A stretch of DNA of 54,965 nucleotides, from the IMG/VR virus record IMGVR_UViG_3300036832_000602, positions 1 to 54,965 of that record, one strand, 5' to 3'. Source of the stretch: a virus. A program made the translations under genes and the position numbers. Shown one piece after another: positions 3,896 to 54,313 of the stretch (the stretch's first letter is position 1; each line of letters starts with the position of its first letter). A model generated the notes under the pieces. That model made no database searches. It saw nothing but the letters and a program-made list of their open reading frames with translations, and was not told where the DNA came from.

Positions 3896-5110
3896 CTATG
3901 TGGCGTTCTTGGTGATCCGGGTGATGACCTTCTCGTGGCGGAGGATCCGGTGGAGCAGGTTCGAGTACTTCGGCCCGACCGTCACCTGAACCACTTCCTC
4001 GCCCGACACGTCACCGACGAAGATGTCCATCTGCGTGACGCGGGTCTGGATCGAGTCGTTGATGCGCCCGTGGTTCACGGTCACGGTCACGATGTCGCCG
4101 AGCCACAGGGCACTCGGATCCCACCAGCCCTGCTTCAAGGTCAACACATACGACGGCGTCAGGTTCGAGTCGCGCACCAGCTCGTAGATGGCGGCGTCCT
4201 CAACCGCTGGGGTCGAGGTCAGGTCGCCGTTCCCCGCCTGGAACTCCCAGCGCCCGGCAGCTTCCAGCAGCGGGTCCGTCTTCCAGCCGGTGGACAGGGC
4301 TTCGTCTACGACGTTCTTCCGCTGCGACGTGGTGCCGGGAGTGGTGCTCCCGGATATGCGCACGACGTTGGCGTAGGGCTGGCCTGTGGAGGCGTTCATC
4401 GCCCGCTGCACGTTGGTGACGTTGTCGCCGTAGGTCAGCTTCATGCCGATGTTCTGCCCACGGCCCTGCTGGTTCAGTCCGTGCGGGGGCTGTGGCCAGG
4501 TGTTGAAGGCCATTGTCGGGCTGATCTCCCACTCGAAGCCGGAGTTCAGCGTGGCGATGTTGTCGATGGCCTGGTCGATGTAAGTACCCTCCGCAGGCTC
4601 CTGTCTGCGCAGTTGAGCCGACGAAGACGCCGGGGTGAACAGCCCTTTATGGATGCCCCAGTCGCCGCCAGGCTGATCCTGGCTCCGGTCGATGATGTCC
4701 CAGGCGATCGAGCACTGGTCCACCGGTGGCTCTGGAGCCTTCCCATAGTGGAAGGTCGGCCACGGGACCATCCGGTGGGCGAGCATCCCGCGGTAGTCGG
4801 TAGCCGTGAAGTCCACCGTATGCACGTCGGGCGACGTACCGCCAGCCACGTTGCCGGCCTGCTCACCGATCGTGTCCTGGCTCGACATGAAGCGCCCGCG
4901 GAACATGAGGTGGTTGTCCCGGTAGCACATCAGGTCGGAGGTGACCTCCTGCACGTAACTGGCGTCAGCCTCCATCGCGTCCATCGTGAACGCTGCCGTG
5001 CAGGCTTCGGTCAGCATCCATGTCATCTGGCGGGAGATCGCCGTGTTCAGCTCTCCCTGCGTGACGCCCTTGGTAGTGGCCACCACGAAGTGCCAGTCAG
5101 GTCCAGGCAT
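3896..5110 (-). CDS. Tail hub / Gp37-like minor tail protein
   Basis: This 404-aa protein starts at 5110 in a TGATG overlap with the last fibre gene. The layout (N-terminal FVVATTKGVTQGELNTA, a VDFTATDYRGMLAHR segment near residue 115, and a C-terminal LGDIVTVTVNHGRINDSIQTRVTQ stretch) matches the ReqiPepy6 Gp37-like/Tal-like proteins that form the tail-tip hub of actinophages. It probably connects the distal tail ring to the fibres. It is unusual in lying after the fibre array rather than before it. The assignment rests on motif style and position. Confidence 0.65.
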   Translation of the reverse strand: MPGPDWHFVVATTKGVTQGELNTAISRQMTWMLTEACTAAFTMDAMEADASYVQEVTSDLMCYRDNHLMFRGRFMSSQDTIGEQAGNVAGGTSPDVHTVDFTATDYRGMLAHRMVPWPTFHYGKAPEPPVDQCSIAWDIIDRSQDQPGGDWGIHKGLFTPASSSAQLRRQEPAEGTYIDQAIDNIATLNSGFEWEISPTMAFNTWPQPPHGLNQQGRGQNIGMKLTYGDNVTNVQRAMNASTGQPYANVVRISGSTTPGTTSQRKNVVDEALSTGWKTDPLLEAAGRWEFQAGNGDLTSTPAVEDAAIYELVRDSNLTPSYVLTLKQGWWDPSALWLGDIVTVTVNHGRINDSIQTRVTQMDIFVGDVSGEEVVQVTVGPKYSNLLHRILRHEKVITRITKNAT

Positions 5111-6375
5111 CAGCCCGTCCCCAGGTAGTCGGCCTGGAAGAAACATGTATAAGCAAGGCCAACTGAGTAAGCGAGGCTTGCTGTACTAGACCAGGACCAT
5201 AGCTGAAGGAAATCGTTGGCTGCAGCACGTACGACTACTGTGCCGTTCGCGTACAAAACAGGTGGCATAGCAGACCCTGCAGAAGCGACCTGAGTATTGA
5301 ACTTCCTAAATCCGCTGTCAGCTAAGGCTACATTCAACCACTGACTAGCTGCCGTAGGTGCGAAAGCCATCTGCCCAGTGAGCCGCCAGAACCCTGCGAC
5401 TAATGTAATGAACCCTGGGTTCGGTGTAGCAGACCACAGACCGTAGTCGTCCCACTGCATGGCGTCGAAGGTTATCGCGGTGTTCGCTGCCGTAACTGTC
5501 GTCAATGCTGCGGAGCGAGCGTAGTAACCGTGCAGTACGTCACGAGCTTTATTCCAGACTCCAGCCTTGACGCCACCCTTGGCGACCCAAATCTCACCCA
5601 TCGAATCAGTGAACGTCGTGAACCCAGCACCTGACGCAAGCGCAGCAGGGAGGTTCATGCCGACTGTCGGGTTGGGGTAAGTACCAGCAAGATCGCCACC
5701 CGAAGCGCCAGAGGGTGGACCACCTGGAGCAGCGGGAACCCACGATGATCCGTTCCAGGTGAGCCTCTGTCCACTTGCTGCGCCGGTCGTGGTACCAAGT
5801 GGCGACCCGTTGATCCTGGCCACTGTCGGGTTCGGTAGGTTACCTGACAGGTCTCCACCAGCCGCTGTGCTCAAAATGGGACGGCGATCGGTGAGGTTCG
5901 CGTTCACGATCGACGTGACGTTGGGTCCAATGAGAACGTTGCAGATCGCGAACTGGTTGGTACCCAGTGCCGGAGCGACCTGGCTACCAGTGGTAGCGGG
6001 TGTGCCCACGACAGTTGTGAAGATGAAGTCGCTGTTCGATCCTGTATCCACGTACTGATTCCGTACCTGAGCCACGACGACATCAATACGTGACTGGCCA
6101 GCGCCAGGAGCCGTCGATATCACAACGTTCTCTACTGCATCTGAGAAGAGGTAGTACGACCCTTCATTGGTCGTGTAGTTTCCGAGTAGCATCGCACGTC
6201 CAGGCTGAATGTCAACTGACATGTTGGCACCAGCAGCGCGTTGGCTGGCAGACATCGACCCGGTAGTGAACCTCACGTTCGAGGCATTACTAGTAGCTAG
6301 GTCGCCGCGGTTCATACGATCTATGTTGGCGTTGTACTGACCCCAGTCCAGGGACAGCGGTGCATAACGTGTCAT
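5110..6375 (-). CDS. Tail fibre paralog 4 (MTRY family)
   Basis: This 421-aa protein shares the MTRY.P...Q...ID/DRM..GD N-terminal module (about residues 1-160) with the three genes upstream; this part probably docks to the tail. A single fibre-shaft unit, GGDLSGNLPNPTVARINGSP with a LTWNGSSWVP tail, follows, then the ~200-residue distal domain (FTDSMGEIWVAKGG to ACFFQADYLGTG-like end). It has no collagen-like stretch, unlike paralogs 2 and 3. Its start overlaps the previous stop. Receptor binding is the likely role. Confidence 0.8.
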   Translation of the reverse strand: MTRYAPLSLDWGQYNANIDRMNRGDLATSNASNVRFTTGSMSASQRAAGANMSVDIQPGRAMLLGNYTTNEGSYYLFSDAVENVVISTAPGAGQSRIDVVVAQVRNQYVDTGSNSDFIFTTVVGTPATTGSQVAPALGTNQFAICNVLIGPNVTSIVNANLTDRRPILSTAAGGDLSGNLPNPTVARINGSPLGTTTGAASGQRLTWNGSSWVPAAPGGPPSGASGGDLAGTYPNPTVGMNLPAALASGAGFTTFTDSMGEIWVAKGGVKAGVWNKARDVLHGYYARSAALTTVTAANTAITFDAMQWDDYGLWSATPNPGFITLVAGFWRLTGQMAFAPTAASQWLNVALADSGFRKFNTQVASAGSAMPPVLYANGTVVVRAAANDFLQLWSWSSTASLAYSVGLAYTCFFQADYLGTG

Positions 6376-8003
6376 CAGCCAGTCCCCATGTAGTCAACCT
6401 GGAAGAAGCAGGAGTAAGCCAGACCTACAGAATAGGGGATGCCTGCTGTATTGGACCAGGACCACAACTGTAGGTAATCGTTGGCATTGCACCGAAAGCT
6501 CACTGCACCTCCGGCACACATGGCGGCTCCAGCCACCACCGCTGATGACAGCACGACATTATTGAGCTTCCTGAACCCACTCACAGCCAAACCTACATTC
6601 AAGGTTTGACCAGCAGCAGTAGGTAGGAAATACATCTGACCTGTCAGACGCCACATACCAGCGATCGGTACTATAAACCCTACAGTCGGAGTACTCTGCC
6701 AAATACCGTAATCGTCGTACTGAACGGCATCGAAGACGATCGGCGTATTTACCGTCGTCACTGTCGATAGGGCTGCGACGCGTGCAGAGTATGCATGTAG
6801 CACGTCCTTCGCACGCTTGTAAGCACCACCGTTGACGCCACCCTTCGCCACCCATACCTCGCCTGTGGTGTCGGTGAACGTGGTGAACGGTGCAGCCGAA
6901 CCGAGCGCAGCAGGTACATTCATGCCGACAGTCGGGTTCGGGTACGTGCCTGCGAGATCGCCGCCCGCAGCACCAGTAGGTGGACCACCACCAGTAGTTA
7001 CCGTCTGCGGCACCCACGCCGAACCGTTCCAGCCGAGCTTCTGGTTGACCGCAGCGCCAGTCAGCGTGCCGAGCGCGGTGCCGTTGATGGCATCAACGAT
7101 CGGGTTCGGGTAGCTGCCTCCGAGATCACCGCCTGCTGCACCGCTCGGTGGGAGGGTGGTGGCTGATGTCTGCGGTACCCATGCCGTACCGTTCCAGCCA
7201 AGCCTCTGGTTGGTCACAGCACCGGTCAGCGTGCCGAGCGCAGTTCCGTTGATCTTGGCGACAGTCGGGCCGGGATAGGAGCCAGAGAGGTCGCCGCTGG
7301 CCGGTCCTGTCGATGGACCAGCAGGACCGGTCGCGCCTGTAGGACCCTGAGGACCAGTAGCGCCGGTGGCACCGGTGTTGCCCTGTGGTCCTTGAGGTCC
7401 AGTCGCGCCTGTAGTGCCGGGAGGTCCCTGAGAGCCAGTGGCGCCGGTCGGTCCCGTAGGACCAGCGGGTCCGGTAGGACCAGGAGGACCAGGAGTGCCA
7501 GCGGGCGAGTACACCGGAGGGAGCACGTTGGTGATGTTCGTCGTCAGGATCTGGGTGACGTTGGCCGCAACGGCCACCTGCGCCAGAGCGAGCTGGTTCG
7601 GCCCCACCGTAGGTACCACAGGGGCACCGGAAGCAGTGCCGGTCAGCACGACGAGGACGAAGTCGTTGTGCCCACTGCTGTCCAGGTAGTCGTTGTCCAC
7701 CTGCGCCACGATCAGGTCGATTCGAGGATAGACAGGATCGGCAGTCGCGAGCGGGACGTTCTCCGGCGCGTCGGAGTACAGGTAGTACGAACCCTCGCCG
7801 AGCACGAGGTTGCCGGGGAAGGCAACCCGGCCCGGCTGCACGTCCACCGACATCGAGCCAGGGAAGAACGCGGACGGCGTGACCTGGAAGGCGTTCGCCG
7901 TTAGGACGGCGAGGTTGGCCCCGTAGATGTCCCCGTAGGCCATCCGGTCGATCTGTGCAGTATCGGCGTAGTTCTGCACATAGAACGGGGTGTAACGGGT
8001 CAT
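6375..8003 (-). CDS. Tail fibre paralog 3 with collagen-like shaft
   Basis: This 542-aa protein starts with the shared MTRYTP module. A collagen-like region of about 20 Gly-X-Y triplets (residues ~175-235, [10 protein letters not shown] style) comes next, then three copies of the [21 protein letters not shown]...WVPQT shaft unit, then the same distal domain as paralogs 1 and 4 (WVAKGG...YDDYGIW...[17 protein letters not shown]). Collagen repeats and shaft units normally trimerise. Differences in shaft length between paralogs suggest modular growth by duplication. Confidence 0.82.
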
Positions 8004-9706
8004 CAGTTCGGGATCAGGATCACTGTGCCATTGGAGCCTGGACTTGGATTGGGCAGGCTGGCGCCACCGTTGAAGCCAGCCGCACCACCATTGGCATCGA
8101 TCGTTATGCCGGGGATGTTGTTGGGAGAGCCAATCGTTACCGAGCCACTGACTACCACCACAATGCCACCCCCACCCCCACCACCGCCTGCCGCGGCGCT
8201 CGTTGGGGAGCCTCCAGTGCCGCCCCTGGCCTGGATTGCACCAGTGCCAGCGAACGTACGGATCGCGAGCATCACGGTCCCACCCCCAGAGCCACCACCA
8301 CCACCAGGGCTGCCGGTTACGCCACCACCAGAACCACCTCCAGCACCACCGCCAACTACGACAGAGTTACCGAGGGAATACGGGTCAGGATAAGTACCAG
8401 CCATAACTGCTAGAGAGGTACGTGGTCGTGCCGAGCTGCCGGTTACGCCACCAGCTACGCCTCCACTTCCACCGTTGAAGCCGCTAGAAGAGCCGCCAGC
8501 ACCACCGGAAGCTCCAGAAGTGTTGTACAGCGAGGCGCCATTGTTACCGAGTGTGCCGGAGGCACCAGCGGCGCCAGCGGCACCGAAGGTAACTTGACTG
8601 CCAGTACCACCGCTCAGAGTGCCACCCGAAGTGAGTGCAGCGCCAGCCCCACCACCATTGGCGCCGTTACTGCCATTCCATTGGATGGTGCCGTTGTGGG
8701 TGAGGACGCCAGAGCAGAAGATGCGGTAGCCAGCCGTGCGGATGCTCACTCCAGAGTTGATGGTGCCGCCCGACAGGAACAGGTCGCGGGTCAGCGTGTA
8801 GACGTTCGAGGACGGCGCCATCCCGAGGATGGTCGAAGAGCCGTTGAAGGTCGGAGCACCATCCGAGCCGTCACCGAAGACACCCAATCCACCACCGGAT
8901 GCCACTACGTTCCCCGGCACCCAGGCTGAACCGTTCCACGTCAGCACCTGGCCGGTGGTCGGCGCGAGAGTGCCCAAGGGAGATCCGTTGATCTTCGCCA
9001 CGGCCGGATTCGGGTAGGTGCCAGAAAGGTCACCGGCAGCCGTGCCGCTCGGTGTGCCTGACGGCCCTTGTGGTCCAGTAGGACCTGTCGGTCCGGCAGG
9101 CCCAGTGGTACCGGCAGGTCCCTGTGGCCCAGGCGCCCCAGGATTTCCCGGCGGTCCAGGCGGCCCCTGTGGTCCAGTCCCACCGCCACCGCCGCCGCTC
9201 CCCGGTGAGTACATCGGTGGCCGTAGGTCCGTGATGACCGTGTTGCTGATTCCAGTGACGCTGTCACCGATGTACACCTGGGCCAGGGCAAGCTGGTTCG
9301 ATCCGAGTGGAGGCGCCACAGCACCGCCGACAACTGCAGGCTGACCTTGTACCGTCGTAAAGATGAAGTCGTTGTTGGCCCCACCATCCACGAAGCCGTT
9401 GCGTACCTGCAGTACGACGATGTCGTAGCGCTCGACCCCGGCGCCCGAGACTGCGATCGGCACAGTCTCGACGGCGTCCGACCATACCCAGTATAGACCC
9501 TCGCTCTGGACGAAGTTCCCGACGACCGTGGCCCTTCCCGGCTGGACAGTGACGTTCATGTCGGAGCCGGTGTTCTGACTAACAGTAAGGTCGGTGGAAG
9601 TACCCATCAGCGCAGCCTGCTGACCGAGGATGTCGCCGTGGAACATACGGTCGAGCTGCGCAGGGTATGAACCCAACTGCTCGTACATCGGTGTGTAGCG
9701 AGTCAT
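8003..9706 (-). CDS. Tail fibre paralog 2 with collagen-like shaft and glycine-rich adhesin tip
   Basis: This 567-aa protein has the shared MTRYTP N-terminus, ~14 Gly-X-Y triplets (residues ~177-220) and one shaft unit. It then departs from its siblings: residues ~285-567 begin [14 protein letters not shown] and become extremely Gly/Ser/Ala-rich with repeated GGGGG blocks, closing at NGTVILIPN. Poly-glycine tips of this kind recall polyglycine-sandwich adhesins such as T-even gp38 (an inference). It probably recognises a different receptor from paralogs 1, 3 and 4. The start overlaps the HNH stop as ATGA. Confidence 0.8.
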
Positions 9707-10149
9707 TGGCTAATCCTACCTAACACACGCATCTTCCGACACTCATGGCATTCCCGATGACCTCGCTTGGTTATGTAGGTATTCTCGGGCGTGAACTCAT
9801 GCCCTCGCTTGCAGTGCGTCTTCTCTCCGTTCCAACTTCGGTAATAACCATGAGCTACTACGTCCCTTGCATTATCTTGGGGAGTGCCCAAATAGAGATG
9901 GTCAAGAAGTACACAAGGTGGATTATCACAAAGATGAAGCACGTGTTTTCTGTCAGTGATCGGCCCACGAAGCAATATCCACCCTGCCCTATGAGCATTC
10001 ATCACTCTGCCCTGATAATGAAAGGCTCCATATAAACCCAAACGACCGCCTGTCCACTCCCGGCATCCAGTTACCGGATCTGCCTTTCCTACGTACGACC
10101 ACCACCTCTCCTCAGGTGTGGCACCTCTTAGAAATACTCCTCTCGTCAT
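9703..10149 (-). CDS. HNH homing endonuclease inside the fibre array
   Basis: This 148-aa protein has an HNH_3-type core: CREWTGGRLGLYGAFHYQG, then MNAHRAGWILLRGPI, HVLHLCDNPPCVLLDHLYLGT and a C-terminal HCKRGHEFTPENTY zinc-like stretch with a final CHECRK. The conserved H and N ligands of the beta-beta-alpha metal fold are present. It is inserted between paralogs 1 and 2, with a TGATG overlap upstream and ATGA downstream, so it does not break the operon. Homing endonucleases cut alleles lacking themselves; the neighbouring fibre genes may be the target. Confidence 0.85.
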   Translation of the reverse strand: MTRGVFLRGATPEERWWSYVGKADPVTGCREWTGGRLGLYGAFHYQGRVMNAHRAGWILLRGPITDRKHVLHLCDNPPCVLLDHLYLGTPQDNARDVVAHGYYRSWNGEKTHCKRGHEFTPENTYITKRGHRECHECRKMRVLGRISQ

Positions 10150-11192
10150 CACCCTGTCCCCAAGTAGTCGCACTCCACGGCAGTTGTATAGGCAAACCCA
10201 ACGGTGTAGGCCAGGCTGCCTGGGGTGGTAAGACCACCTACCTGCAGGTTGTCCCCTATCACGCACCTCATAACTGCTACTGCAGTAACAGAAACAGTCG
10301 AAGCTGTAGGTGCTGTTATACGGTGCTCCACTTTCCTAAATCCTGTCTGCCAGAGGTCTATGAGCGACACCTGGTTGACTGCCGTGGTGGTGCAGGTCAG
10401 CAAGCCCATCAGCCGCCATATACCTGGTACCGGGAGTATGAATCCGGTAGACGCTCCTACATACAGGCTGTAATCATCGAACTCTTTGCCATCCCAGGCA
10501 ATGTTGAGATTGCTCGCCTGCGAGGTGAGCGCGCCGTTACGATGCCACCTGGCATGGAGCACTTCGGTAGCACGCCTCCACGCGCCGCCGTTGATGCCAC
10601 CCTTGGCACACCACACTTCGTTGTTGGAGTCGGTGTAGTACTGGAATCCCGCGCCGGACGCCAGCGGCGGCGGCTGGACCTGATTCCACAGGACAGGACG
10701 GAAGTCCGTGATCTTGGCGTTCAGGATCGACGTGACCTGCGCGCTGACGAGGACCTGCGCCAGCTTGAGTTGGTTGGTCCCGATGGCGGGCACGCTGGCG
10801 GAGCCTGTGGCTGCCGCTGTGCCCTGGATCTTGGTGAACAGGAAGTCGTTGTTCTGCCCGCCGTCGATGAAGCCGTTGCGTACCTGCGCGACGATCACGT
10901 CGTAGCGCTCCTGGCCGGCGCCCGGCGCAGCCGAGATGATGACGTTCTCGACGGCATCCGACCAGAGGTAGTACGTCCCCTCGTTGGCCTGGAAGTTGCC
11001 CTGCAGAGCAGCGCGACCTGGCTGCACGTCCACCGACATGTTGGCGCCGGTCCCGCACTGCGTCACCTGGAAGGCGCCGTAGGAGAGCAGCAAGGAACTG
11101 ACGTTCGCCCCGAGGATGTCGCCGTGGAACATGCGGTCTGCGACCGCTGTGTAGGTCCCGAGCTGCTCGTACATCGGCGTGTAGCGTGTCAT
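10149..11192 (-). CDS. Tail fibre paralog 1 (shortest)
   Basis: This 347-aa protein contains the [13 protein letters not shown]-terminal module and goes almost straight into the distal domain (YYTDSNNEVWCAKGGINGG... to TTAVECDYLGTG), with neither collagen repeats nor shaft units. It may be the ancestral minimal form of the array. It follows the distal tail protein with a 15-bp gap and an AAGGA ribosome site. Likely part of the baseplate or a short fibre. Confidence 0.78.
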   Translation of the reverse strand: MTRYTPMYEQLGTYTAVADRMFHGDILGANVSSLLLSYGAFQVTQCGTGANMSVDVQPGRAALQGNFQANEGTYYLWSDAVENVIISAAPGAGQERYDVIVAQVRNGFIDGGQNNDFLFTKIQGTAAATGSASVPAIGTNQLKLAQVLVSAQVTSILNAKITDFRPVLWNQVQPPPLASGAGFQYYTDSNNEVWCAKGGINGGAWRRATEVLHARWHRNGALTSQASNLNIAWDGKEFDDYSLYVGASTGFILPVPGIWRLMGLLTCTTTAVNQVSLIDLWQTGFRKVEHRITAPTASTVSVTAVAVMRCVIGDNLQVGGLTTPGSLAYTVGFAYTTAVECDYLGTG

Positions 11193-34622: not shown

Positions 34623-35498
34623 ATGGCATACGCGAAGAAGAGCAAGGAAGAGAAGATCGAGGAGGTCAAGGCGGCGCAGGAGAAGCTGACGGCGGCGCTG
34701 GAAGAGATGGTCACCGGGGAGGATTGGATCCGGTGGCTGAACTACCAGACCAAGTTTCACAAGTACTCGGCTAACAACTGCATGCTCATCGTGCTTCAGA
34801 ACCCCAACGCTACGCAGGTAGCCGGCTACGAGACCTGGAAGAAATTGGGCCGGCAGGTCATGAAAGACGAGAAGTCGATCCGCATCTTCGCTCCGATCAA
34901 GGGGGCGCGCACCGAGCAGGATCCGGCTACCGGCGAGGATGTCACCCGCACCTGGCTGCGCTTCATGCTGGTGGGTGTGTTCGATGTGAGCCAGACAACC
35001 GGCGATCCGCTCCCCGAGGCGCAGCATCCGGTCCTGCTCGACGGGGAGGCGCCCGAGGGGCTGTACGACGCCCTAGCGGCGCAGGTAGCCGCGGCCGGCT
35101 ACGCGCTCCACAGGGGGGACTGCCGCGGAGCCAACGGCTACACCGACTACCTGGCTCGCGTGGTCAAGGTGCGCGACGACGTTTCCGAGGCGCAGGCGTG
35201 CAAGACGCTGGCGCACGAGCTGGCCCATGTGCTGCTCGATCACGAGCACCGCGGCCACGGCGCCGAGGCGACCATCACGCGGGACCGGATGGAGGTCGAA
35301 GCCGAGTCGGTCGCCTACATCGTGTGCAGCTTGCACGGGCTGGACTCGAGCGGCTACACGCTCGGGTACGTTGCCCACTGGGCCGATGGCAGCCTCGCCA
35401 AGGTACGCGAGACCACCGCCAAGGTTGCCGAGGTCGCCAAGCGGATCCTGGACACTACCGAGGTGCCCGCCGCCGACCGTGAGCTGGTGGCGGCATGA
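34623..35498 (+). CDS. ArdC-like antirestriction protein: ssDNA-binding domain plus metallopeptidase
   Basis: This 291-aa protein begins with an ArdC-type N-terminal domain (residues ~15-110: FHKYSANNCMLIVLQNP, GYETWKKLGRQVMKDEKS, IRIFAPIKG), known in plasmids to bind single-stranded DNA and protect incoming DNA from restriction. The C-terminal half has a zinc metallopeptidase signature, LAHELAHVLL (HExxH, ~197-206), with a downstream glutamate in EVEAESVAYIVC, as in ImmA/IrrE-like proteases. The combination is the classic ArdC layout. It is first in its transcript, under a strong early promoter, which suits early protection against host defence. Confidence 0.85.
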   Translation: MAYAKKSKEEKIEEVKAAQEKLTAALEEMVTGEDWIRWLNYQTKFHKYSANNCMLIVLQNPNATQVAGYETWKKLGRQVMKDEKSIRIFAPIKGARTEQDPATGEDVTRTWLRFMLVGVFDVSQTTGDPLPEAQHPVLLDGEAPEGLYDALAAQVAAAGYALHRGDCRGANGYTDYLARVVKVRDDVSEAQACKTLAHELAHVLLDHEHRGHGAEATITRDRMEVEAESVAYIVCSLHGLDSSGYTLGYVAHWADGSLAKVRETTAKVAEVAKRILDTTEVPAADRELVAA

Positions 35499-44569: not shown

Positions 44570-45044
44570 TCTCATAGAGTTGTCATTCGGCAGCATTCGC
44601 CGGTCTCTCTTTGAGGAGAAGGTGCGCCACGAACCGTCAGGATGCCACCGGTGGACTGCGGCCATGGATAATACCGGTTATGGTCGGATAAGGCTCAGTC
44701 AACCTCGCAAGGCTGGGCTCGCTCATAGAGTTTCATATGAGCTGTACAAGGGTCCTATACCTGAAGGTAAGGAGCTTGACCACCTGTGCCACAACCGCTG
44801 GTGTGTCAATCCAGAACACCTGGACCTTGTAACTCATGCAGAAAATATGCATAGGTACGCTCTATTGTGTAAGAGAAAAGAAGCCTGTAAGCATGGGCAC
44901 CGGCTCTCCGATAAGAACCGCTACAACAGAGGTAGAGCCTGCAAATACTGCATGTACGTGAGGGGTGCTTTACGTGATGGACATGCCTGTAAGTCGTTCG
45001 AGGACTGGCTACTGATGCAAGGGGGTGGTGATGCAGACGATTAG
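44559..45044 (+). CDS. HNH homing endonuclease in the DNA-metabolism block
   Basis: This 161-aa protein starts 11 bp inside the SNF2 gene. An HNH_3 core is visible: CHRWTAAMDNTGYGRIRLSQ, LAHRVSYELYKGPIPEGKELDHLCHNRWCVNPEHLDLVTHAEN, then ACKHGHRLSDKNRYNRGRACKYC. The coding is visibly less GC-biased than in its neighbours, which fits recent acquisition. It lies between SNF2 and the Cas4-like nuclease and slightly overlaps both. Confidence 0.88.
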   Translation: MRDDLIELSFGSIRRSLFEEKVRHEPSGCHRWTAAMDNTGYGRIRLSQPRKAGLAHRVSYELYKGPIPEGKELDHLCHNRWCVNPEHLDLVTHAENMHRYALLCKRKEACKHGHRLSDKNRYNRGRACKYCMYVRGALRDGHACKSFEDWLLMQGGGDADD

Positions 45045-46023
45045 GACTAGCGACCGCGGCTACTTCAAGCGCTGCCGGCAGCTCTGGAACTGGACATCAG
45101 TACTACGGGAGAACCTCGAGCCGTACCAGCGGGTGGAGGCTCTCGACTTAGGCACCGCCATCCACGCTGCGCTCGAGTCGTACTACAACCCGGACCGCTG
45201 GGGAGACTACGCCGCCATGGAGCAGGAGGCTACCAACGCCTTCCTGGCGTTCGTTGCCGAGGTCGAGGAACTGGTGCAGGAGGCGCCGATAGACATCGAG
45301 ATCGACTTCGAGGCACAGAAGGAACTGGGCCTGGGAATGCTTCACCACTACTTCCGCTGGGCACCGAACCACGACGACTTCACGCCGGTACGGGTCGAGG
45401 TGGAGTTCGAGGTGCCAATCCCCGCACTGCCGGAAGCCGTCTACCAGGGACGGGTCGACCTGCTAGCTGAAGATGAGCACGGCCTGTGGATCGTGGACCA
45501 CAAGACGGCCGGGCAGTTCGGCGCTACCGAGTGGCTCGTGCTCGATGACCAGTGCAGCAGCTACGCGTGGGCACTGCGCAAGCAGCTCGGGTTGGAGGTG
45601 CGCGGCGTGATCTACAACGAGCTACGCAAGAAGGCTCCGCACAAACCGCTGATCCTGAAGAACGGCACGCTGTCGTTGAACAAGAGTCAAGAGACAACCT
45701 ATGAGCTGTACATGGAGATGATCAGCGAACTGGGACTCAGCATCGGGGACTACGACGGCATACTCGAGTACCTGCTGTCGCAGAACGACCGTTACTTCAG
45801 GCGTACACGGGTCACTTTCAACCCACAGATGCTGCAACTGGTAGAGCAGCGGATCCTCTTAGAGGCCCACGAGATGATCGATGACCCCGCCATTTACCCT
45901 ACACCTTCCCGGTTCAACTGCACCGGCTGTCGCTTCTTTGCCCCTTGCGTTGCGTTGCAGGAAGGTGCAGACTACACGGCAATCCTTAATGAAAACTACG
46001 AACGGAGAACTGGAAATGGCTGA
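45031..46023 (+). CDS. Cas4/RecB-like exonuclease (PD-(D/E)XK, Fe-S type)
   Basis: This protein has 330 aa from ATG 45,031 after AGGGGGTGG. Motifs: GTAIHAALESYY (~38), a YQGRVDLLAE...LWIVDHKTAG metal site (D...DHK, ~136-157) and QCSSYAWALR (QxxxY). Cys15 (KRCRQLWNW) and C-terminal FNCTGCRFFAPC give a four-Cys iron-sulfur cluster typical of Cas4/AddB nucleases. In phages these resect DNA ends for recombination. It overlaps the Sak4-like ATPase gene by 8 bp, so the two likely work in one recombination pathway. There is no CRISPR array here. Confidence 0.85.
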   Translation: MQTIRTSDRGYFKRCRQLWNWTSVLRENLEPYQRVEALDLGTAIHAALESYYNPDRWGDYAAMEQEATNAFLAFVAEVEELVQEAPIDIEIDFEAQKELGLGMLHHYFRWAPNHDDFTPVRVEVEFEVPIPALPEAVYQGRVDLLAEDEHGLWIVDHKTAGQFGATEWLVLDDQCSSYAWALRKQLGLEVRGVIYNELRKKAPHKPLILKNGTLSLNKSQETTYELYMEMISELGLSIGDYDGILEYLLSQNDRYFRRTRVTFNPQMLQLVEQRILLEAHEMIDDPAIYPTPSRFNCTGCRFFAPCVALQEGADYTAILNENYERRTGNG

Positions 46024-47334: not shown

Positions 47335-49557
47335 TTGCCCATTGTAGTCCCACACTCAGAAGATGCGTCAAACAAGCGAGAGACCTTCTTCAGGGTGATC
47401 TTCGACAAGGTCCAAGTCGAGGGGCGCGAGAGGTTCGTCTGCATAGCCCGTAAGGCACAGGGCCGCAACGGCAGGTTCCAAGAGCACTTCTTCCGGTGGC
47501 CACTGGAACTGGACGCTCTAACACGCTACGTGGACGAAGGTGTCGCCGGACACAACGTTTACTTTGCCCCGATGCTCTTCGACGGGCCAACACGTACGAA
47601 GGAACACTGCGTTTCGTGCCCGGTGGTGTGGGCAGACCTCGACACCTGCGATCCATCGAACCTCCTCGTGCCGGCGTCGGTGTCGATCGAGTCAAGCTCA
47701 GGCCGCTGGCAAGCCCTGTGGATATTCAACCAGGAGGAGGACCCAGGGGAGGTCGAGGACCTCGCTCGCAAGATCGCCTACGCGCACTCCGAGGAGGGCG
47801 CCGACAAAAGCGGCTGGGACCTCACCCAGCTACTGCGGGTGCCGTTCACCTACAACTGGAAGTACGAACCTGCTTCCGTAGTGATGATCCGGTCGGCCAG
47901 TTCCGAGACGACACTCCGAGACATGGACGGGATCTACCCCAGCACCGAGAGCCATGAGCAGTCTTCCTGGCCGTTCCCCGAGGAGATACCGAACGCCCAA
48001 TGGGTATTGGAACAGCACGAGGCCCATATGCGGCCGCTGGTGTTCCGGCTCATCGAGGACGAGCCGGCGAACGACTGGTCGGGCGCCCTGTGGAACCTCG
48101 AGATGCTGCTGTGCGAGGAAGGGCTCAGTCGTGAGGAAGTGTTCGCCATCGCTTCCATTGCCGCCTGCAACAAGTATGCCCGCGACGGGCGCTCACAGCA
48201 TGCGCTGTGGGCCGAGGTCTGCAAGGCATGGTCTACTACCCACGAGCAAACCGGCATCATTCCCAGCGTTGAGGATGTTGCCAACCTCGAAGATCTGCTA
48301 AGCGATGAGAACATGCGGTCGGCTGAAGCCGACCACACCTTCATCGATGACTACATCGACTGGGGACAGGCCGCTTCAGACGCTGCCCCGGAGTACCACG
48401 AGGCCGGAGCATTCGTAGCCCTTAGCTCGATACTGTCGGGATACCTGCGCTTGATGACGTCGATCGGGCCGTTCCGATTCAACCTGTGGTTCATGCTGTT
48501 GGGTGACTCCACGCTCACCCGCAAGACCACCGCCATGAGGCTGTCTACCCAAATGGTGATGGACGTCGAGAAGGAAATAGTACTGGCGACAGATGGCTCA
48601 TGGGAGGGATTGCTCACAGGGATAAGCAAGCGCGACGGGAGAGCCACCCTCTACCGGTCCGACGAGTTCAGCGGCACGCTGGCGACGATGACGAAACGCG
48701 AGTACATGGTCGGGTCAACGGAGATGTTCACCCAGCTCTACGACGGTAGCTTTGTGAAGCGCCTGCTGCGCAAGGAAACGATAACGATCGATGAGCCGAT
48801 CTTCATCTTCTTCGTTGGTGGAATCCGGGAGCGCGTACAAAGCCTGCTAGGACCAGAGCATGTGACCTCCGGGTTCGTGGCGAGGTTCGTTCTCATCAAC
48901 GGGAACGTCGACATGAACAGGCTGCGCTCGATACATGCCTCGAACGCAGCCAGTGAGGCAAGTGAAGATCAAAGAATCGCATTGGTGAACCGCCTGCGCC
49001 AGATGCAGGAGCTGTATCGTAGTAACTTCACTGTCAGCTCGAACGGTAACCATGCTGTTGTGCAGAACAAACCCCATGTAACCCTGACCCAGGACGCTTG
49101 GGACCTGTACAACAGCCTCGAGATGAAGCTCATAAAAGCTGTCTATAACACTGCCAGCCAGGAAATGCTGCTTCCCACCATGGATCGGCTTGCTAAAGGT
49201 GGGTTGAAAGCGTCGGTGCTGATAGCAGCTAGCCGCATGAAGAGTGAACATGTGACGGTCGAGGAAGGAGACGTACTCAAGGCCTTCCAGTACATCAGCA
49301 AATGGAGGCAGAATGCCATCGAAGTGCTGGCAAATATAGGCGTGTCCGCTACCGAGAGACGCATCCAGCAAGTCGAGAGGGCCATCTACCGCAGGAGGAC
49401 AGGGCTATCCCGCAGCGAACTGATGCGGAACTTCCACCTAAACGCGTTCGAAGCGCAGTTGATCCTCGACACGCTGGTACAGCGCGGTCTGATCAAGCGC
49501 ACTCCTGGGAGGAGGGGGAGCATATCCGAGATGTGGTTCCCCACTCAGGACACATGA
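47335..49557 (+). CDS. Primase-helicase (AEP-like primase plus DUF3987-type ATPase)
   Basis: This protein has 740 aa from a TTG at 47,335 with AGTAGG upstream; no better start is visible, so the N-terminus is uncertain. The N-terminal part has VVWADLDTCDP (D101-x-D103) and SGRWQALWIF, as in archaeo-eukaryotic-type primases. The second half has LLGDSTLTRKTT (~388-399, Walker A-like), LYRSDEFSGTLATMTK (Walker B region) and a C-terminal winged-helix (RTGLSRSELMRNFHLNAFEAQLILDTLV). The layout matches replicative primase-helicases of phages and plasmids. It sits just upstream of the polymerase fusion. Confidence 0.82.
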   Translation: MPIVVPHSEDASNKRETFFRVIFDKVQVEGRERFVCIARKAQGRNGRFQEHFFRWPLELDALTRYVDEGVAGHNVYFAPMLFDGPTRTKEHCVSCPVVWADLDTCDPSNLLVPASVSIESSSGRWQALWIFNQEEDPGEVEDLARKIAYAHSEEGADKSGWDLTQLLRVPFTYNWKYEPASVVMIRSASSETTLRDMDGIYPSTESHEQSSWPFPEEIPNAQWVLEQHEAHMRPLVFRLIEDEPANDWSGALWNLEMLLCEEGLSREEVFAIASIAACNKYARDGRSQHALWAEVCKAWSTTHEQTGIIPSVEDVANLEDLLSDENMRSAEADHTFIDDYIDWGQAASDAAPEYHEAGAFVALSSILSGYLRLMTSIGPFRFNLWFMLLGDSTLTRKTTAMRLSTQMVMDVEKEIVLATDGSWEGLLTGISKRDGRATLYRSDEFSGTLATMTKREYMVGSTEMFTQLYDGSFVKRLLRKETITIDEPIFIFFVGGIRERVQSLLGPEHVTSGFVARFVLINGNVDMNRLRSIHASNAASEASEDQRIALVNRLRQMQELYRSNFTVSSNGNHAVVQNKPHVTLTQDAWDLYNSLEMKLIKAVYNTASQEMLLPTMDRLAKGGLKASVLIAASRMKSEHVTVEEGDVLKAFQYISKWRQNAIEVLANIGVSATERRIQQVERAIYRRRTGLSRSELMRNFHLNAFEAQLILDTLVQRGLIKRTPGRRGSISEMWFPTQDT

Positions 49558-49745
49558 TGGCCAGAGTCAAGCGCTGCGATCAGTGCGGCAACAGCATCTG
49601 CCTATCGTCCTCGGCTGACGACTTCTGCGATGCAGCCTGCTACATCCGCTGGCTGGTCGTCACGGGCCGGGTCACCCGACGTCGTGCCATCGGGTACGTG
49701 AAGTGCCGACTGCAAGGCCTGCCGACCGCCGCTCTCATACCGTGA
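49554..49745 (+). CDS. Small zinc-ribbon protein
   Basis: This protein has 63 aa from ATGATG overlapping the primase stop. RCDQCGNSICLSS and DDFCDAACYIRWLV give four or five Cys of a zinc ribbon, with a basic C-terminal tail (TRRRAIGYVKCRLQ). Coupled to the methyltransferase-polymerase by GTGA. May be a replication accessory. Confidence 0.7.
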   Translation: MMARVKRCDQCGNSICLSSSADDFCDAACYIRWLVVTGRVTRRRAIGYVKCRLQGLPTAALIP

Positions 49746-52700
49746 CCGCTACCTACATCGTCGGCGACGTGTTCCAGGGACTGGCAACCCTCGAGCCAGG
49801 GAGCGTTGACCTGGTCGTCACGAGTCCACCCTTCCTGGCTGTCCGCACCTACCTTCCGGTGGACGATCCTTTGAAGCACAAGGAGATCGGCTCCGAGCCG
49901 AACCCTGCCGTGTTCATCGACGTCATGCTCGACCTAGTCGAGGCCATCGCGCCGGCACTCGCCCCGCACGGATCGATGTGCCTGGAGTTTGGGGACACCT
50001 ACGCCGGCTCGAGCGGCACCAACGTCAGCGAGCGCCGCAAGATCGGCGCGCAGGAGCTGGCTACCGATGAGGAGTACAAGCAGATCTACGAGCGGGATAT
50101 CCCCTACCGGCGCGCCGGCTACCGCGAGTTCGCAACCTCCAGCTCCAAACCACGCACTGTCGAAGGCTGGCCGCTCGACAAGTCGAAGTGCATGATCCCT
50201 GAACTGATAGCCATCGCGCTCGCCTACGGCTTCAACCCGCTCACCGGCCGCACCACCGACCGCTGGCGTATCCGCAATCTCGTGACGTGGTGCCGACCCA
50301 ACCCTCCCATCGGAGCGGACGGCGACAAGTTCCGCCCAGCTTCCACCCGTATCATCGTTGCCACCAAGGCGAAGGACCGCTACTTCGACGGGTTCGGGGT
50401 ACGTGTGCCGTCCCTGACCCCGCCTCGAGAGGGCTACCCGGTGACCCCAGACCAGAAGATGGCAACGGCTACAGGGGGCTCCTGGCACATGGACCGCAGC
50501 GCCATGAACGGGGAAACCCGTCCCCTCTACGACTGGTGGGAGATCCCGACAGAGAGCTTCAAGGGCAGCCACTACGCCACCTATCCGCGCAGCCTGGTGG
50601 AACCGCTCATCGTAGCCATGTGCCCCGAGCGCGTCTGCGGCACCTGCGGACAGCCCAGCCTGCGGGTCATGGGGGATACGAAGTACCTGAACTCCCGCAA
50701 CGAGGAAGCCTCGTACCTCGCCATGAACGATTCCAAGGCGAGGATGGCCCCTGGTGTGAACCAGTTCAAGCACGACACCGTCCACCACATCGTGCAGGAG
50801 TCGGTCGGCTGGTCGGACTGCGGTCACGACAACTGGCGCCTCGGACGGGTGCTCGACCCTTTCGCCGGGTCCGGCACCACCCTCCTCGTCACCTGCGGAC
50901 TAGGACGTGAGAGCATTGGGATCGACCTCGACCACCGCAACCTCACCCTGGCGCAGAACCGCATCGGCATGTTCCTCCAGAACGTGATCGAGCTACCGCT
51001 GGACACGCCGCTGCCGCTTCAGACACCACAGGTAGAGCCTGAGCCTGTGGTGCAGGCGCCAGAACCGGTGGTGCTGGAGGTGCCAAAACCGACACCACAG
51101 CCCCAGCCAGCGGTCACCGAGCCGCTATGGAGGGAACTGCCGAAGCTCATCGAACTGCCAGACGAGTTCGAGGTAGTGCGCCGGCACCCGCTCGCCAAGT
51201 GCGAGGAGTGCCCGCTGGCGAACGAGCAATCGATCTTCGTGCCGTCCAAGCAGGTCGAGGACCCGCACATCGTCATCGTGGGTGAGGCTCCGGGCGCACA
51301 GGAAGCAAAGCACGGTATCCCGTTCGTCGGTCCGTCCGGCAAGATACTCGACGCAGTGCTAGCGGGTCAGCGGCTGCAGCGAAAAGAAGCCTTCATCACC
51401 AACGCCTGTCTATGCCGGCCGAAGGACAACGCCACGCCCACCGCCAAGGCCGTGCGGGCATGCGCGCCGCGCCTGCTCGAGGAAGTCACTGAGGCGACCA
51501 AGGGCGGCGCCCCGATTGTGGCTATGGGAAACGTGGCTGCCTCCGCCATCCTCGACTACAAGGTGTCCATCCTCGAGCACCGCATGGGGCTGCCGAAGGA
51601 ATCGCACCTCTACCCAGGCGTGCCGGTCATTCCGACCATCCACCCTGCCTACGCGCTACGCGTGCCCGAGGCGCTGCCGCTGCTGGTGGACGACATCGCC
51701 AAGATCAACGGCGACGTCGGCATGGGCTGGGAGGAACCGCAGTACCGTACCTTCGAGGTTGCACTGCAGGCCCGCCAGGCACTCCAGCAGCTACGCAAGC
51801 TGGCCCCAGCCTCGGTGGTGGTCGACATCGAGGTCGGCGCCGAGAAGGACGAGACGTTCATCCGGCCCGACAAGCTGCGGCTGCTCTGCGTGGGGCTGGC
51901 CTATGCCCCCGGCAAGGCGATCGTGATCGGTGAGCAGGCCCTGCACGACCTCGGTGTGCAGCACGAGCTATCAGCCCTACTGCGCTCATCGAGGGTGGTC
52001 GCGCACAACGGCAAGTTCGACCTCGCCGGCTTGAGACACATCACCACAGGGGCACGACTGGGCTTCGACACGATGCTAGCGAGCTACGTCTGCGACGAGC
52101 GGAAGGGTACCCACGGGCTGAAGTACCTGGCGATGGAACGGCTCGGTGCTCCAAACTACGCAACCCTGATCCACAAGTACATCTCCAGCAAAGGTGAAAA
52201 CTTCGCTCACGTTCCGACTGAAGTCCTGCACAAGTACAACGCTTACGATGTGGTGTGTACCTGGAGCCTCATGGAGTTGTACGAGGAACGGATGCGTCGG
52301 GAGGATCTGACCAAGGTACACGACATGCTCGTGCGCGGCTCGAACATGCTGCTCCCTGTGGAGCAGAAGGGACTGCGGGTCGACCTCGAGTACATGCACA
52401 AGCTCGACACCGAGTTCAGCGACCAGATCGAGGGCCTTGACCGCAGCATAAGGAAATGGGTGGAGAACGCCCGTTCTCCCCAGCAGATCACCAACGCCCT
52501 GCGCAAGCTGGGGATGAACGCGCCGTCCACCGGCATCGAGGTCCTGCAGAAGCTGGTTGAGACAGCAACCGGGCCGGCGCTCGAGTTCCTTACCCAGCTA
52601 ATGGAGCACCGACGCCTGTCCAAGCTGCACGGTACCTATGTGAAGGGCATTGAGGACCGACTCGAGAACGGTTACGTACACCCGACCTTCCTACTGCACG

Positions 52701-53461
52701 GCACCACGACCGGGCGTCTGTCATGCCGCAACCCAAACCTGCAGAACATCCCACGGGAATCGGCTATCAAGCGCATGTTCGTGCCTGACCCCGGCAAGGT
52801 GTTCGTGCAGGCCGACTACAAGGCCATTGAGTTGCGCGTGATCACCTGCGAGTCACGCGACGAGTATTTGAGGAGCATGTTTGCGGAGGATCGTGACATC
52901 CACTCGGAGGTGGCTGAGAGGTTCTTCGGGCCGGGCTTCACCAAGGAGCAGCGTGTCTGGGCTAAGGGCGTTGTATACGGACTCAGCTACGGACGTGAGG
53001 CGTACGCTCTCGGCCAGGCTGCCGGCATTCCGACAGCGGAGGCGCAGACCTACATCGACACGTTTCTGGGGATGATCCCCGGCGCCATGGCCTGGCGTGA
53101 CCGGATCGCTCACCAGGTACTCGAGACGGACCAGGACCTGACTACCGTCTACGGGCGCCACCGGCGCGTGCTGCTGCTCACCGACGAGAACAAGAAGGAC
53201 ACCTTGAAGGAGTCCTACGCCTTCATTCCACAGAGCACCGCCAGCGACATCTGCCTGTCGGCTGCGATCGAGCTACACGAGAAGCACGGACTCGACATCC
53301 GGCTTCTCGTACATGACTCGATCCTGGTCGAGACGGACGAGCCCGACGAGGTGGCGACGCTGATGCACGAGGTCATGCCGAGGGTCGCCGCCGAGACCTA
53401 CAGTTCCTTCGTCCCCTTCCCAGTTGAGACTGCAGTGGGCACGAACTGGTCGGAGGTGTAG
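49742..53461 (+). CDS. Four-domain DNA enzyme: DNA methyltransferase - uracil-DNA glycosylase - 3'-5' exonuclease - family A DNA polymerase
   Basis: This protein has 1239 aa from GTG 49,742 (GTGA overlap). (1) Beta-class methyltransferase, ~1-420: SPPF at 28-31 (motif IV) before FAGSGTT at 374-380 (motif I), with a Cys insertion (CPERVCGTCG...SDCGH). (2) A Pro-rich linker (~420-470). (3) Family-4-like UDG, ~480-670: CEEC at 487-490, GEAPG at 514-518, CLCRP and RACAPR Cys for Fe-S, and HPAYALR at 634. (4) Exonuclease: VVVDIEVGAE (D695, E697), AHNGKFDLAG, YNAYDVV. (5) Pol A: DYKAIELR (1025), R1071...K1075...Y1079...YG, and HDS (H1191, D1192). All motifs look intact. Tyr1079 is at the Pol I 762 position. 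The frame is unbroken throughout, so this is a fusion, not a cluster of separate genes. Confidence 0.9.
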   Translation: MTATYIVGDVFQGLATLEPGSVDLVVTSPPFLAVRTYLPVDDPLKHKEIGSEPNPAVFIDVMLDLVEAIAPALAPHGSMCLEFGDTYAGSSGTNVSERRKIGAQELATDEEYKQIYERDIPYRRAGYREFATSSSKPRTVEGWPLDKSKCMIPELIAIALAYGFNPLTGRTTDRWRIRNLVTWCRPNPPIGADGDKFRPASTRIIVATKAKDRYFDGFGVRVPSLTPPREGYPVTPDQKMATATGGSWHMDRSAMNGETRPLYDWWEIPTESFKGSHYATYPRSLVEPLIVAMCPERVCGTCGQPSLRVMGDTKYLNSRNEEASYLAMNDSKARMAPGVNQFKHDTVHHIVQESVGWSDCGHDNWRLGRVLDPFAGSGTTLLVTCGLGRESIGIDLDHRNLTLAQNRIGMFLQNVIELPLDTPLPLQTPQVEPEPVVQAPEPVVLEVPKPTPQPQPAVTEPLWRELPKLIELPDEFEVVRRHPLAKCEECPLANEQSIFVPSKQVEDPHIVIVGEAPGAQEAKHGIPFVGPSGKILDAVLAGQRLQRKEAFITNACLCRPKDNATPTAKAVRACAPRLLEEVTEATKGGAPIVAMGNVAASAILDYKVSILEHRMGLPKESHLYPGVPVIPTIHPAYALRVPEALPLLVDDIAKINGDVGMGWEEPQYRTFEVALQARQALQQLRKLAPASVVVDIEVGAEKDETFIRPDKLRLLCVGLAYAPGKAIVIGEQALHDLGVQHELSALLRSSRVVAHNGKFDLAGLRHITTGARLGFDTMLASYVCDERKGTHGLKYLAMERLGAPNYATLIHKYISSKGENFAHVPTEVLHKYNAYDVVCTWSLMELYEERMRREDLTKVHDMLVRGSNMLLPVEQKGLRVDLEYMHKLDTEFSDQIEGLDRSIRKWVENARSPQQITNALRKLGMNAPSTGIEVLQKLVETATGPALEFLTQLMEHRRLSKLHGTYVKGIEDRLENGYVHPTFLLHGTTTGRLSCRNPNLQNIPRESAIKRMFVPDPGKVFVQADYKAIELRVITCESRDEYLRSMFAEDRDIHSEVAERFFGPGFTKEQRVWAKGVVYGLSYGREAYALGQAAGIPTAEAQTYIDTFLGMIPGAMAWRDRIAHQVLETDQDLTTVYGRHRRVLLLTDENKKDTLKESYAFIPQSTASDICLSAAIELHEKHGLDIRLLVHDSILVETDEPDEVATLMHEVMPRVAAETYSSFVPFPVETAVGTNWSEV

Positions 53462-53526: not shown

Positions 53527-53847
53527 ATGTCACCTCTCCAATCGGTCGGGGCAACTAGTCCGCTGGGATCGGGCAAGAGCCGGTTATATCCCATGAAACC
53601 ATCCGATGCTGTCAAGCGCGGACTCTGCCCGAGCTGTCTCGGGAAGGGGACCGTCACGGTCCTCGTGCCATACGAGGACGACGCTGCCGAGTGCTTGACC
53701 TGCGCGGGTACCGGCATGTTCCCGGTCCGCTGCACCCGCTGCGACGGCGAGCTGCACCTGAACGTGATGAGTGACTGGGTGCACGTCGATTACGACCAGC
53801 ACAACCACATACCGCGGCTACCACCAAAGGCAGAGCCGCTCTCCTAG
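53527..53847 (+). CDS. DnaJ-type zinc-finger protein
   Basis: This protein has 106 aa from ATG 53,527; a GTG at 53,509 or an ATG at 53,593 are alternatives, and no start has a good ribosome site. CPSCLGKGTVTV, ECLTCAGTGMFPVRCTRC are three CxxC knuckles of the DnaJ-type cysteine-rich finger, probably binding zinc. It lies between the polymerase and the RuvC-like gene. Unknown partner. A 17-codon frame (53,466-53,519) between it and the polymerase is too short to call. Confidence 0.65.
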   Translation: MSPLQSVGATSPLGSGKSRLYPMKPSDAVKRGLCPSCLGKGTVTVLVPYEDDAAECLTCAGTGMFPVRCTRCDGELHLNVMSDWVHVDYDQHNHIPRLPPKAEPLS

Positions 53848-53848
53848 C

Positions 53849-54313
53849 GTGTACTGCGTCGCGCTCGACCCAGGTGGCACCACAGGGGTAGCCACCGTCC
53901 CGAATGCCGACGAGCCGTGGGTGATCGAGCCGCGCCAGTTCGAGGGCGAGCACCACGCTACCCTGCTGAGCTACCTGGAGTTCAGCCGACCGGAGACGAT
54001 CATCGCAGAATCCTTTTACCGCACGGCCAACGAGGCGGCGCGGCTGGCGTCGAGCGAGATCATCGGCGTCGTCAAGGCGTATGCGCAGGCGACGGCTACT
54101 CCTGTGGTCTGGCAGTCCCCCTCCACAGGGAAGGGCTTCTGGTCCGATCTCCGGCTCAAGAAGTGCGGGCTCTATGTCGTCGGCAAGCCGCACGCTCGCG
54201 ACGCGATCCGACACTACGCCTACTGGCGCACCTTCACGCTGAAGGATTCCTCACTCCTGGCGAAGACAGGGGAGAGCGGCCCCGAAGGGCCGCACCCCTT
54301 TCTTGACGACTAG
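53849..54313 (+). CDS. RuvC-like Holliday-junction resolvase
   Basis: This protein has 154 aa from GTG 53,849. An RNase H-like fold with VALDPGGTTGVAT (D7), IIAESFYRTANEAARLASSEIIGVVKAYA (E54) and HARDAIRHYAYW (D118) gives the acidic triad of RuvC-type nucleases. It probably cuts branched replication or recombination intermediates before packaging. Its last codons contain the hairpin at 54,270-54,296, and it converges on the transglycosylase gene, with a 4-bp overlap of their 3' ends. Confidence 0.82.
   Translation: MYCVALDPGGTTGVATVPNADEPWVIEPRQFEGEHHATLLSYLEFSRPETIIAESFYRTANEAARLASSEIIGVVKAYAQATATPVVWQSPSTGKGFWSDLRLKKCGLYVVGKPHARDAIRHYAYWRTFTLKDSSLLAKTGESGPEGPHPFLDD
54270..54296 (-). terminator. 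Repeated UUCG stem-loop, copy 3
   Basis: GCGGCCC and GGGCCGC close UUCG on the minus strand, ~15 bp after the leftward stop at 54,310. The same bases encode the end of the RuvC-like protein (GESGPEGPHP) on the plus strand, so a rightward terminator here would cut that message short. The leftward role is therefore more likely. Confidence 0.6.

Follow-up and report, generated by a model that had tools for sequence, protein, structure and literature searches.

The window analysed here, the whole IMG/VR virus record IMGVR_UViG_3300036832_000602 (54,965 bases), carries downstream of its primase a gene in which a DNA methyltransferase is joined to a replicative DNA polymerase. The genes are those of a siphovirus. 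The minus strand encodes terminase, portal, major head protein, tape measure and tail fibres; the plus strand encodes helicase, exonuclease, a Sak4-like annealing protein, single-stranded DNA-binding protein (SSB), primase and the fusion. The fusion gene is a single open reading frame (ORF) at 49742-53461 (+), with a GTG start, 1239 codons and a stop codon. Of the window's long genes that were searched, no other was seen to encode a polymerase; the fusion is therefore the only recognisable replicase of the phage.

Four enzyme domains, all on the plus strand and all above their Pfam cut-offs, follow one another in the polypeptide. Residues 1-415 (49742..50986) form a beta-class amino-methyltransferase domain, recognised by PF01555 (N6_N4_Mtase, residues 22-295, E 4.8e-18), by the PHROGs methyltransferase family phrog_67 and by the fold of its AlphaFold model. 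It is followed by a Pro/Glu/Val-rich linker (residues 416-469, 50987..51148) with 15 Pro in 54 residues; it is predicted to be disordered, most blocks from residue 420 onwards having a predicted local distance difference test score (pLDDT) of about 41-55. Next comes a type-4 uracil-DNA glycosylase (UDG) domain (51149..51780), which matches PF03167 (residues 507-644, E 5.2e-26), the UDG TM0511 (E 5.5e-24) and TIGR00758 (E 1.8e-33 and 115.7 bits, slightly below the cut-off of 125.3). A 3'-5' exonuclease domain (51803..52273; PF01612, DNA_pol_A_exo1, residues 688-844, E 1.6e-11) and a family A DNA polymerase domain (52388..53461 with the stop codon; PF00476, DNA_pol_A, residues 883-1238, E 5.3e-67; Klenow alignment E 3e-43) complete the chain, and PHROGs also assigns a polymerase family to the protein.

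The motifs of each enzyme are in place. In the methyltransferase, motif IV (TSPPF, 27-31) stands ahead of motif I (DPFAGSGTT, 372-380), which is the beta-class order. The UDG has the motifs of a type-4 enzyme, with four Fe-S cysteines (CEEC 487-490, C558 and C574), GEAPGAQE (514-521) and HPAYALR (634-640). ExoI-III are represented by DIE (695-697), NGKFD (756-760) and YNAYD (832-836), and polymerase motifs A, B and C by DYKAIELR (1025-1032), R1071/K1075/Y1079 and VHD (1190-1192); motif C reads VHDS, not VHDE. Residue 1079 (within 52943-52993), at the position of E. coli Phe762, is a Tyr, and two sister phages (loci L092 and L094) have Phe there; published work ties the residue at this position to how the polymerase behaves and to the life style of the phage. 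An earlier note on this DNA, made from the letters alone, had read the catalytic motifs of four enzymes in this order with a Pro-rich linker after the first, and had proposed a domain search of the whole protein; that search and the motif positions agree with it. Judged from sequence, a flexible tether connects two complete enzymes, and the methyltransferase and UDG-PolA halves are of separate origin.

The start of the gene is indicated by its neighbours. In the sequence GTGA (49742-49745) the start codon shares bases with the stop of a small Cys-rich ORF (49554..49745, +), whose own start overlaps the primase stop (ATGA, 49554-49557); GTG 49742 is therefore the likely start, and the fusion gene would be the last member of a tightly coupled gene run. 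An alternative, longer reading starts at GTG 49703. Across the linker, codon scores are +3.6 to +14.4 in the ORF frame and zero or negative in every other frame, and the G+C content at third codon positions (GC3) is 0.85 before the junction and 0.83 after it. Between codons 411 and 570 the frame has no ATG codon, and the GTG codons of this interval lack a properly spaced Shine-Dalgarno sequence. The continuous 1239-codon frame reported earlier thus stays open and coding-like through the linker, and is almost certainly a real single ORF.

The predicted methyltransferase fold is beta-class, with a core pLDDT above 90; its nearest structures are M.BceJIV, M.MboIIA and M.RsrI, and M.PvuII is also matched (E 1e-12 to 9e-9 for M.BceJIV, M.RsrI and M.PvuII). 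The domain's best matches in named phages and plasmids stand alone as methyltransferases, at about 25-30% identity. A closer subfamily, 42-49% identical, occurs in at least three IMG/VR phage contigs (L379, L451/L452 and L454), where its members are, among the matches listed, stand-alone genes of roughly 430-585 residues; a UDG-PolA of the window's type was not found in these records, some being incomplete.

The polymerase half has many relatives. The fusion query matched 4,887 of 50,697 phage records, none of which covers 80% of the fusion protein. A single-sequence search of IMG/VR with the whole protein found no relative, and those described here were found there by three alignment-query scans, which gave at least 172 loci that form, at 97% identity, at least 162 clusters. 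These searches sampled part of the polymerase and methyltransferase families and may miss records near-identical to the window; the IMG/VR counts given below hold among the matches listed. Sampled relatives start at the UDG, with no extra domain, while the window has 469 residues ahead of it. The methyltransferase is absent from the UDG-PolA ORF and the fetched flanks in all 162 clusters, which bears out the earlier remark that UDG-PolA is a known phage polymerase type but that a methyltransferase in front of it is unfamiliar. The same note had held that close relatives with these domains as separate genes would speak against it; the relatives carry UDG-PolA alone, and a separate upstream methyltransferase gene was rejected, since none was found in the whole records of 29 relatives (profile search) or in 14 relatives searched with PF01555, a search whose control was positive in 11 of the 14 genomes. 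A scan of genome contigs returned mostly cellular PolA without UDG, its best match (L161) being a relative without the gene cassette described below. No methyltransferase-polymerase fusion was found in the open-access literature, which is weak evidence of absence, most subscription journals lying outside its coverage; as the families were sampled in part, fused forms may exist elsewhere.

What the relatives carry in the same position is more informative. The interval is bordered on the left by the DUF3987 primase/helicase gene (47335..49557, +; phrog_10514 DNA primase, E 1.5e-91), and its synteny is marked on the right by a conserved RuvC-like gene downstream of the polymerase (53849..54313, +; family not confirmed; phrog_1981, of unknown function), 49-57% identical in sister phages. 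From primase to UDG-PolA the distance is 1.6 kb in the window vs about 3.8 kb in the nearest relatives, whose slot holds genes for QueC, QueD (PTPS), QueE, GTP cyclohydrolase I (FolE), a MazG-like protein and a DpdA-like protein, a 7-deazaguanine cassette. Among the 16 closest polymerase clusters (49-62% identical to the window, 97% clustering), two or more dpd genes are visible in 15, and only the DpdA-like gene in the sixteenth, which a contig end cuts short; none of the 16 carries this methyltransferase. Over all 162 clusters, 98 have at least two cassette genes, 12 have one, 37 have a visible primase and no cassette, and 15 are undecided. The window has no que/dpd genes (QueC, QueD, QueE, FolE, DpdA) and does not have the gene set of a 7-deazaguanine phage.

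The relationship extends beyond the replicase. Two sister phages, G003 and G004 (loci L094 and L095), have the QueC-QueD-QueE-FolE-MazG-DpdA cassette where the window has the methyltransferase, and they match the window at 81-83% in the major capsid, 69% in the portal, 65-66% in the terminase and 65% in the helicase; among replication genes, UDG-PolA is 59-60%, SSB about 60% and primase 47-48% identical, and the recombinase is shared. In the polymerase tree the window falls within the UDG-PolA clade as sister to six cassette-bearing loci, those of G003 and G004 among them (support of 100 in the Shimodaira-Hasegawa-like approximate likelihood ratio test). Parsimony on this tree favours a cassette-bearing ancestor and a loss in the window's line, although it also leaves room for a gain of the cassette in the sister line instead. 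On sequence evidence, then, one slot carries different genome-marking systems in related phages, and the methyltransferase has very probably replaced the 7-deazaguanine cassette there.

The last gene of the cassette deserves separate mention. The DpdA-like protein (230-266 residues) is usually encoded directly upstream of UDG-PolA in phages with the preQ0 pathway, and in the nearest relatives it overlaps the start of UDG-PolA. Members of this short family (231-266 aa) lie at L094:4315-5010, L092:4298-5038, L097:4256-5014, L002:3060-3860 and L005:3205-3975. They have no Pfam match above cut-off and no NCBIfam match; the family profile matches the DNA-guanine transglycosylase 7ui4 (E 8.4e-6), and a model with pLDDT 96.5 matches, in Foldseek, tRNA-guanine transglycosylase (E 1.4e-8) and DpdA 7ui4 (E 2.0e-7). 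Residues D47, N48, E52, D77, H159, G162 and D183 are invariant.

A flexible Pro-rich linker thus tethers a complete methyltransferase to the N-terminus of a UDG-exonuclease-PolA replicase, in the place between primase and polymerase where the sisters have their 7-deazaguanine cassette. We propose the following mechanism. As DNA emerges from the polymerase, the tethered enzyme would mark its target sites (N4 of cytosine or N6 of adenine), and progeny genomes with methylated sites would evade host restriction, the job that 7-deazaguanine would do in the sisters. Modification with 7-deazaguanine protects phage DNA from restriction enzymes (PMC6884629). Because the nearest relatives carry a protective mark of another kind at exactly this place, the methyltransferase looks like a swapped-in shield and its proposed anti-restriction role gains independent support. 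The earlier note had suggested protection of nascent DNA from host restriction; the slot lends weight to the protective part of that suggestion. We infer catalytic activity, target, coupling to synthesis and benefit against restriction, and they do not stand equally firm. A self-protection function of the methyltransferase is probable, and a self-methylating replicase that shields phage DNA from restriction is, as an overall reading, only a little less so. That marking is coupled to replication has a chance somewhat short of even. We put forward still more tentatively a "copy-and-mark" replicase that would methylate nascent viral DNA at the fork and for which an entire base-replacement pathway would have been exchanged. 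The earlier note had also joined uracil checking to modification and copying; the UDG belongs to the polymerase by descent and occurs whether or not the cassette is there, and nothing here ties it to methylation.

Several observations weigh against this reading. The fusion is known from one metagenomic contig. Within its frame, codon 479 is a GTG (51176) that lies exactly at the UDG start, with GAGG just 2 nt upstream, and could in principle begin a shorter, UDG-PolA-only product. The target base is ambiguous: TSPPF, which resembles m4C (N4-methylcytosine) enzymes, points to one base, and the best structural matches are m6A (N6-methyladenine) enzymes, with m4C enzymes also among the nearest folds. 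We know of no cognate restriction system. Moreover, in the 37 clusters with neither cassette nor methyltransferase the UDG-PolA does without either, and a modification system in the slot is therefore not essential to it.

In relatives' slots without the cassette, read by eye and by profile for other modification genes, only small ORFs of unknown function were seen. Five of them (L105, L146, L152, L338 and L353) encode a conserved protein of about 100 aa, also of unknown function, which starts like MPYIGxRxxHxxxxIxVKxHGP.

The alternative that survives best, although we consider it unlikely, is an active and protective methyltransferase whose fusion is incidental, fixing an expression ratio or arising by read-through, with methylation not tied to the fork. 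In two sister loci (L094 and L092) the DpdA-like gene already overlaps the UDG-PolA start in another frame; tight translational coupling at the junction is therefore ancestral, and the fusion is perhaps its extreme form. The stand-alone state of the same methyltransferase subfamily in other phages points the same way. Against this, two complete enzymes are joined by a Pro-rich, coding-like linker of about 50 residues, as a tether would join them.

A second alternative, to which we give little credence, is that methylation is regulatory rather than protective and times transcription, packaging or replication initiation. Orphan phage methyltransferases can be regulators, and no restriction nuclease was seen among the searched neighbours of the methyltransferase, which does not form a recognisable restriction-modification system there; a PD-(D/E)XK gene at 45031-46023 belongs to a phage exonuclease family (phrog_1218). 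The sisters' cassette, however, belongs to a class that confers restriction resistance (PMC6884629). The phage also has an ArdC-like anti-restriction gene (34623-35498, +; ArdC-N with an IrrE/M78 metallopeptidase), which fits restriction pressure on it; no match to this gene was found in G003 or G004.

It is less likely still that the methyltransferase domain is catalytically dead and has become a DNA-binding or processivity part of the polymerase. Of 93 positions conserved in the wider family, the domain deviates at 42 and the other rows at a median of 3, a comparison biased by the fact that those rows had been fetched by profile. Its catalytic and cofactor motifs are nevertheless intact and its predicted fold complete, and 23 of the 42 deviating positions are identical in the stand-alone homologue L379, so that many of the deviations are subfamily features rather than decay; the idea of a decayed domain is weakened by these residues. 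Finally, an assembly artefact or two products, with a missing stop or a chimeric join merging two genes, is very improbable, since, although the fusion comes from a single contig with no other fused example among the matches listed, the primase upstream and the polymerase downstream belong to the same phage lineage, so that a chimera would have had to be joined twice, to the left and to the right of the methyltransferase, coding frame and GC3 run on without a break, and the ends of the contig match (1-153 and 54813-54965, a direct terminal repeat 96% identical over 153 bases, the first 126 exact and then 6 mismatches in 27), as expected of a circularly permuted or overlapping assembly and suggesting a closed genome.

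Known systems resemble parts of this arrangement. Brevundimonas phage StAshley has a UDG-PolA with the same order of UDG, exonuclease and polymerase in one chain, and queC, queD, queE and a DpdA-like gene upstream of it; this type has no methyltransferase domain and is about 30% identical to the window's. A 1142-aa polymerase chain in the PDB (9qhs_A) has a weak UDG match. M.PvuII, M.RsrI and M.BceJIV share motif order and fold with the window's methyltransferase, which differs from them in being fused to a polymerase and in belonging to its own subfamily (that of L379, L451 and L454, among the matches listed). Phage 7-deazaguanine (dpd/preQ0) modification occupies the same slot for what we propose is the same purpose, covalent genome marking, but its chemistry differs and the window has none of its genes. 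In phage polyvalent proteins (methylase-SWI2/SNF2 ATPase dyads, DarB; PMC5512222) a methyltransferase and a DNA-acting motor modify phage DNA; the methylase is paired there with a helicase/ATPase and is thought to act at injection, whereas the window's is paired with a replicase. None of the polyvalent-protein hub domains MPTase, ART and SNF2 was found in the fusion protein by Pfam or PHROGs.

These phages amount to a natural experiment, in which replication and structural genes are shared, some members have a 7-deazaguanine cassette and one has a polymerase-fused methyltransferase at the same locus. They make it testable whether the marking of viral DNA is coupled to its synthesis, and whether a fixed "modification slot" next to the replicase takes modification systems as interchangeable modules. 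A copy-and-mark replicase, if real, would be a direct physical link from a replicative polymerase to sequence-specific genome modification. The comparison also reveals a widespread association of UDG-PolA with the 7-deazaguanine cassette, and a short DpdA-like family unrecognised by Pfam and NCBIfam.

Small Cys-rich ORFs lie on either side of the fusion gene: the one coupled to the primase (49554-49745) has no homologue in G003 or G004, and the other (53593-53847, +), which has a weak DnaJ CxxCxGxG match, was not found in them either. Four tail/fibre genes at 5110-11192 (-) have first ~165 residues that all match one gene region in the sister phages, which suggests that a fibre N-terminus has been duplicated locally.

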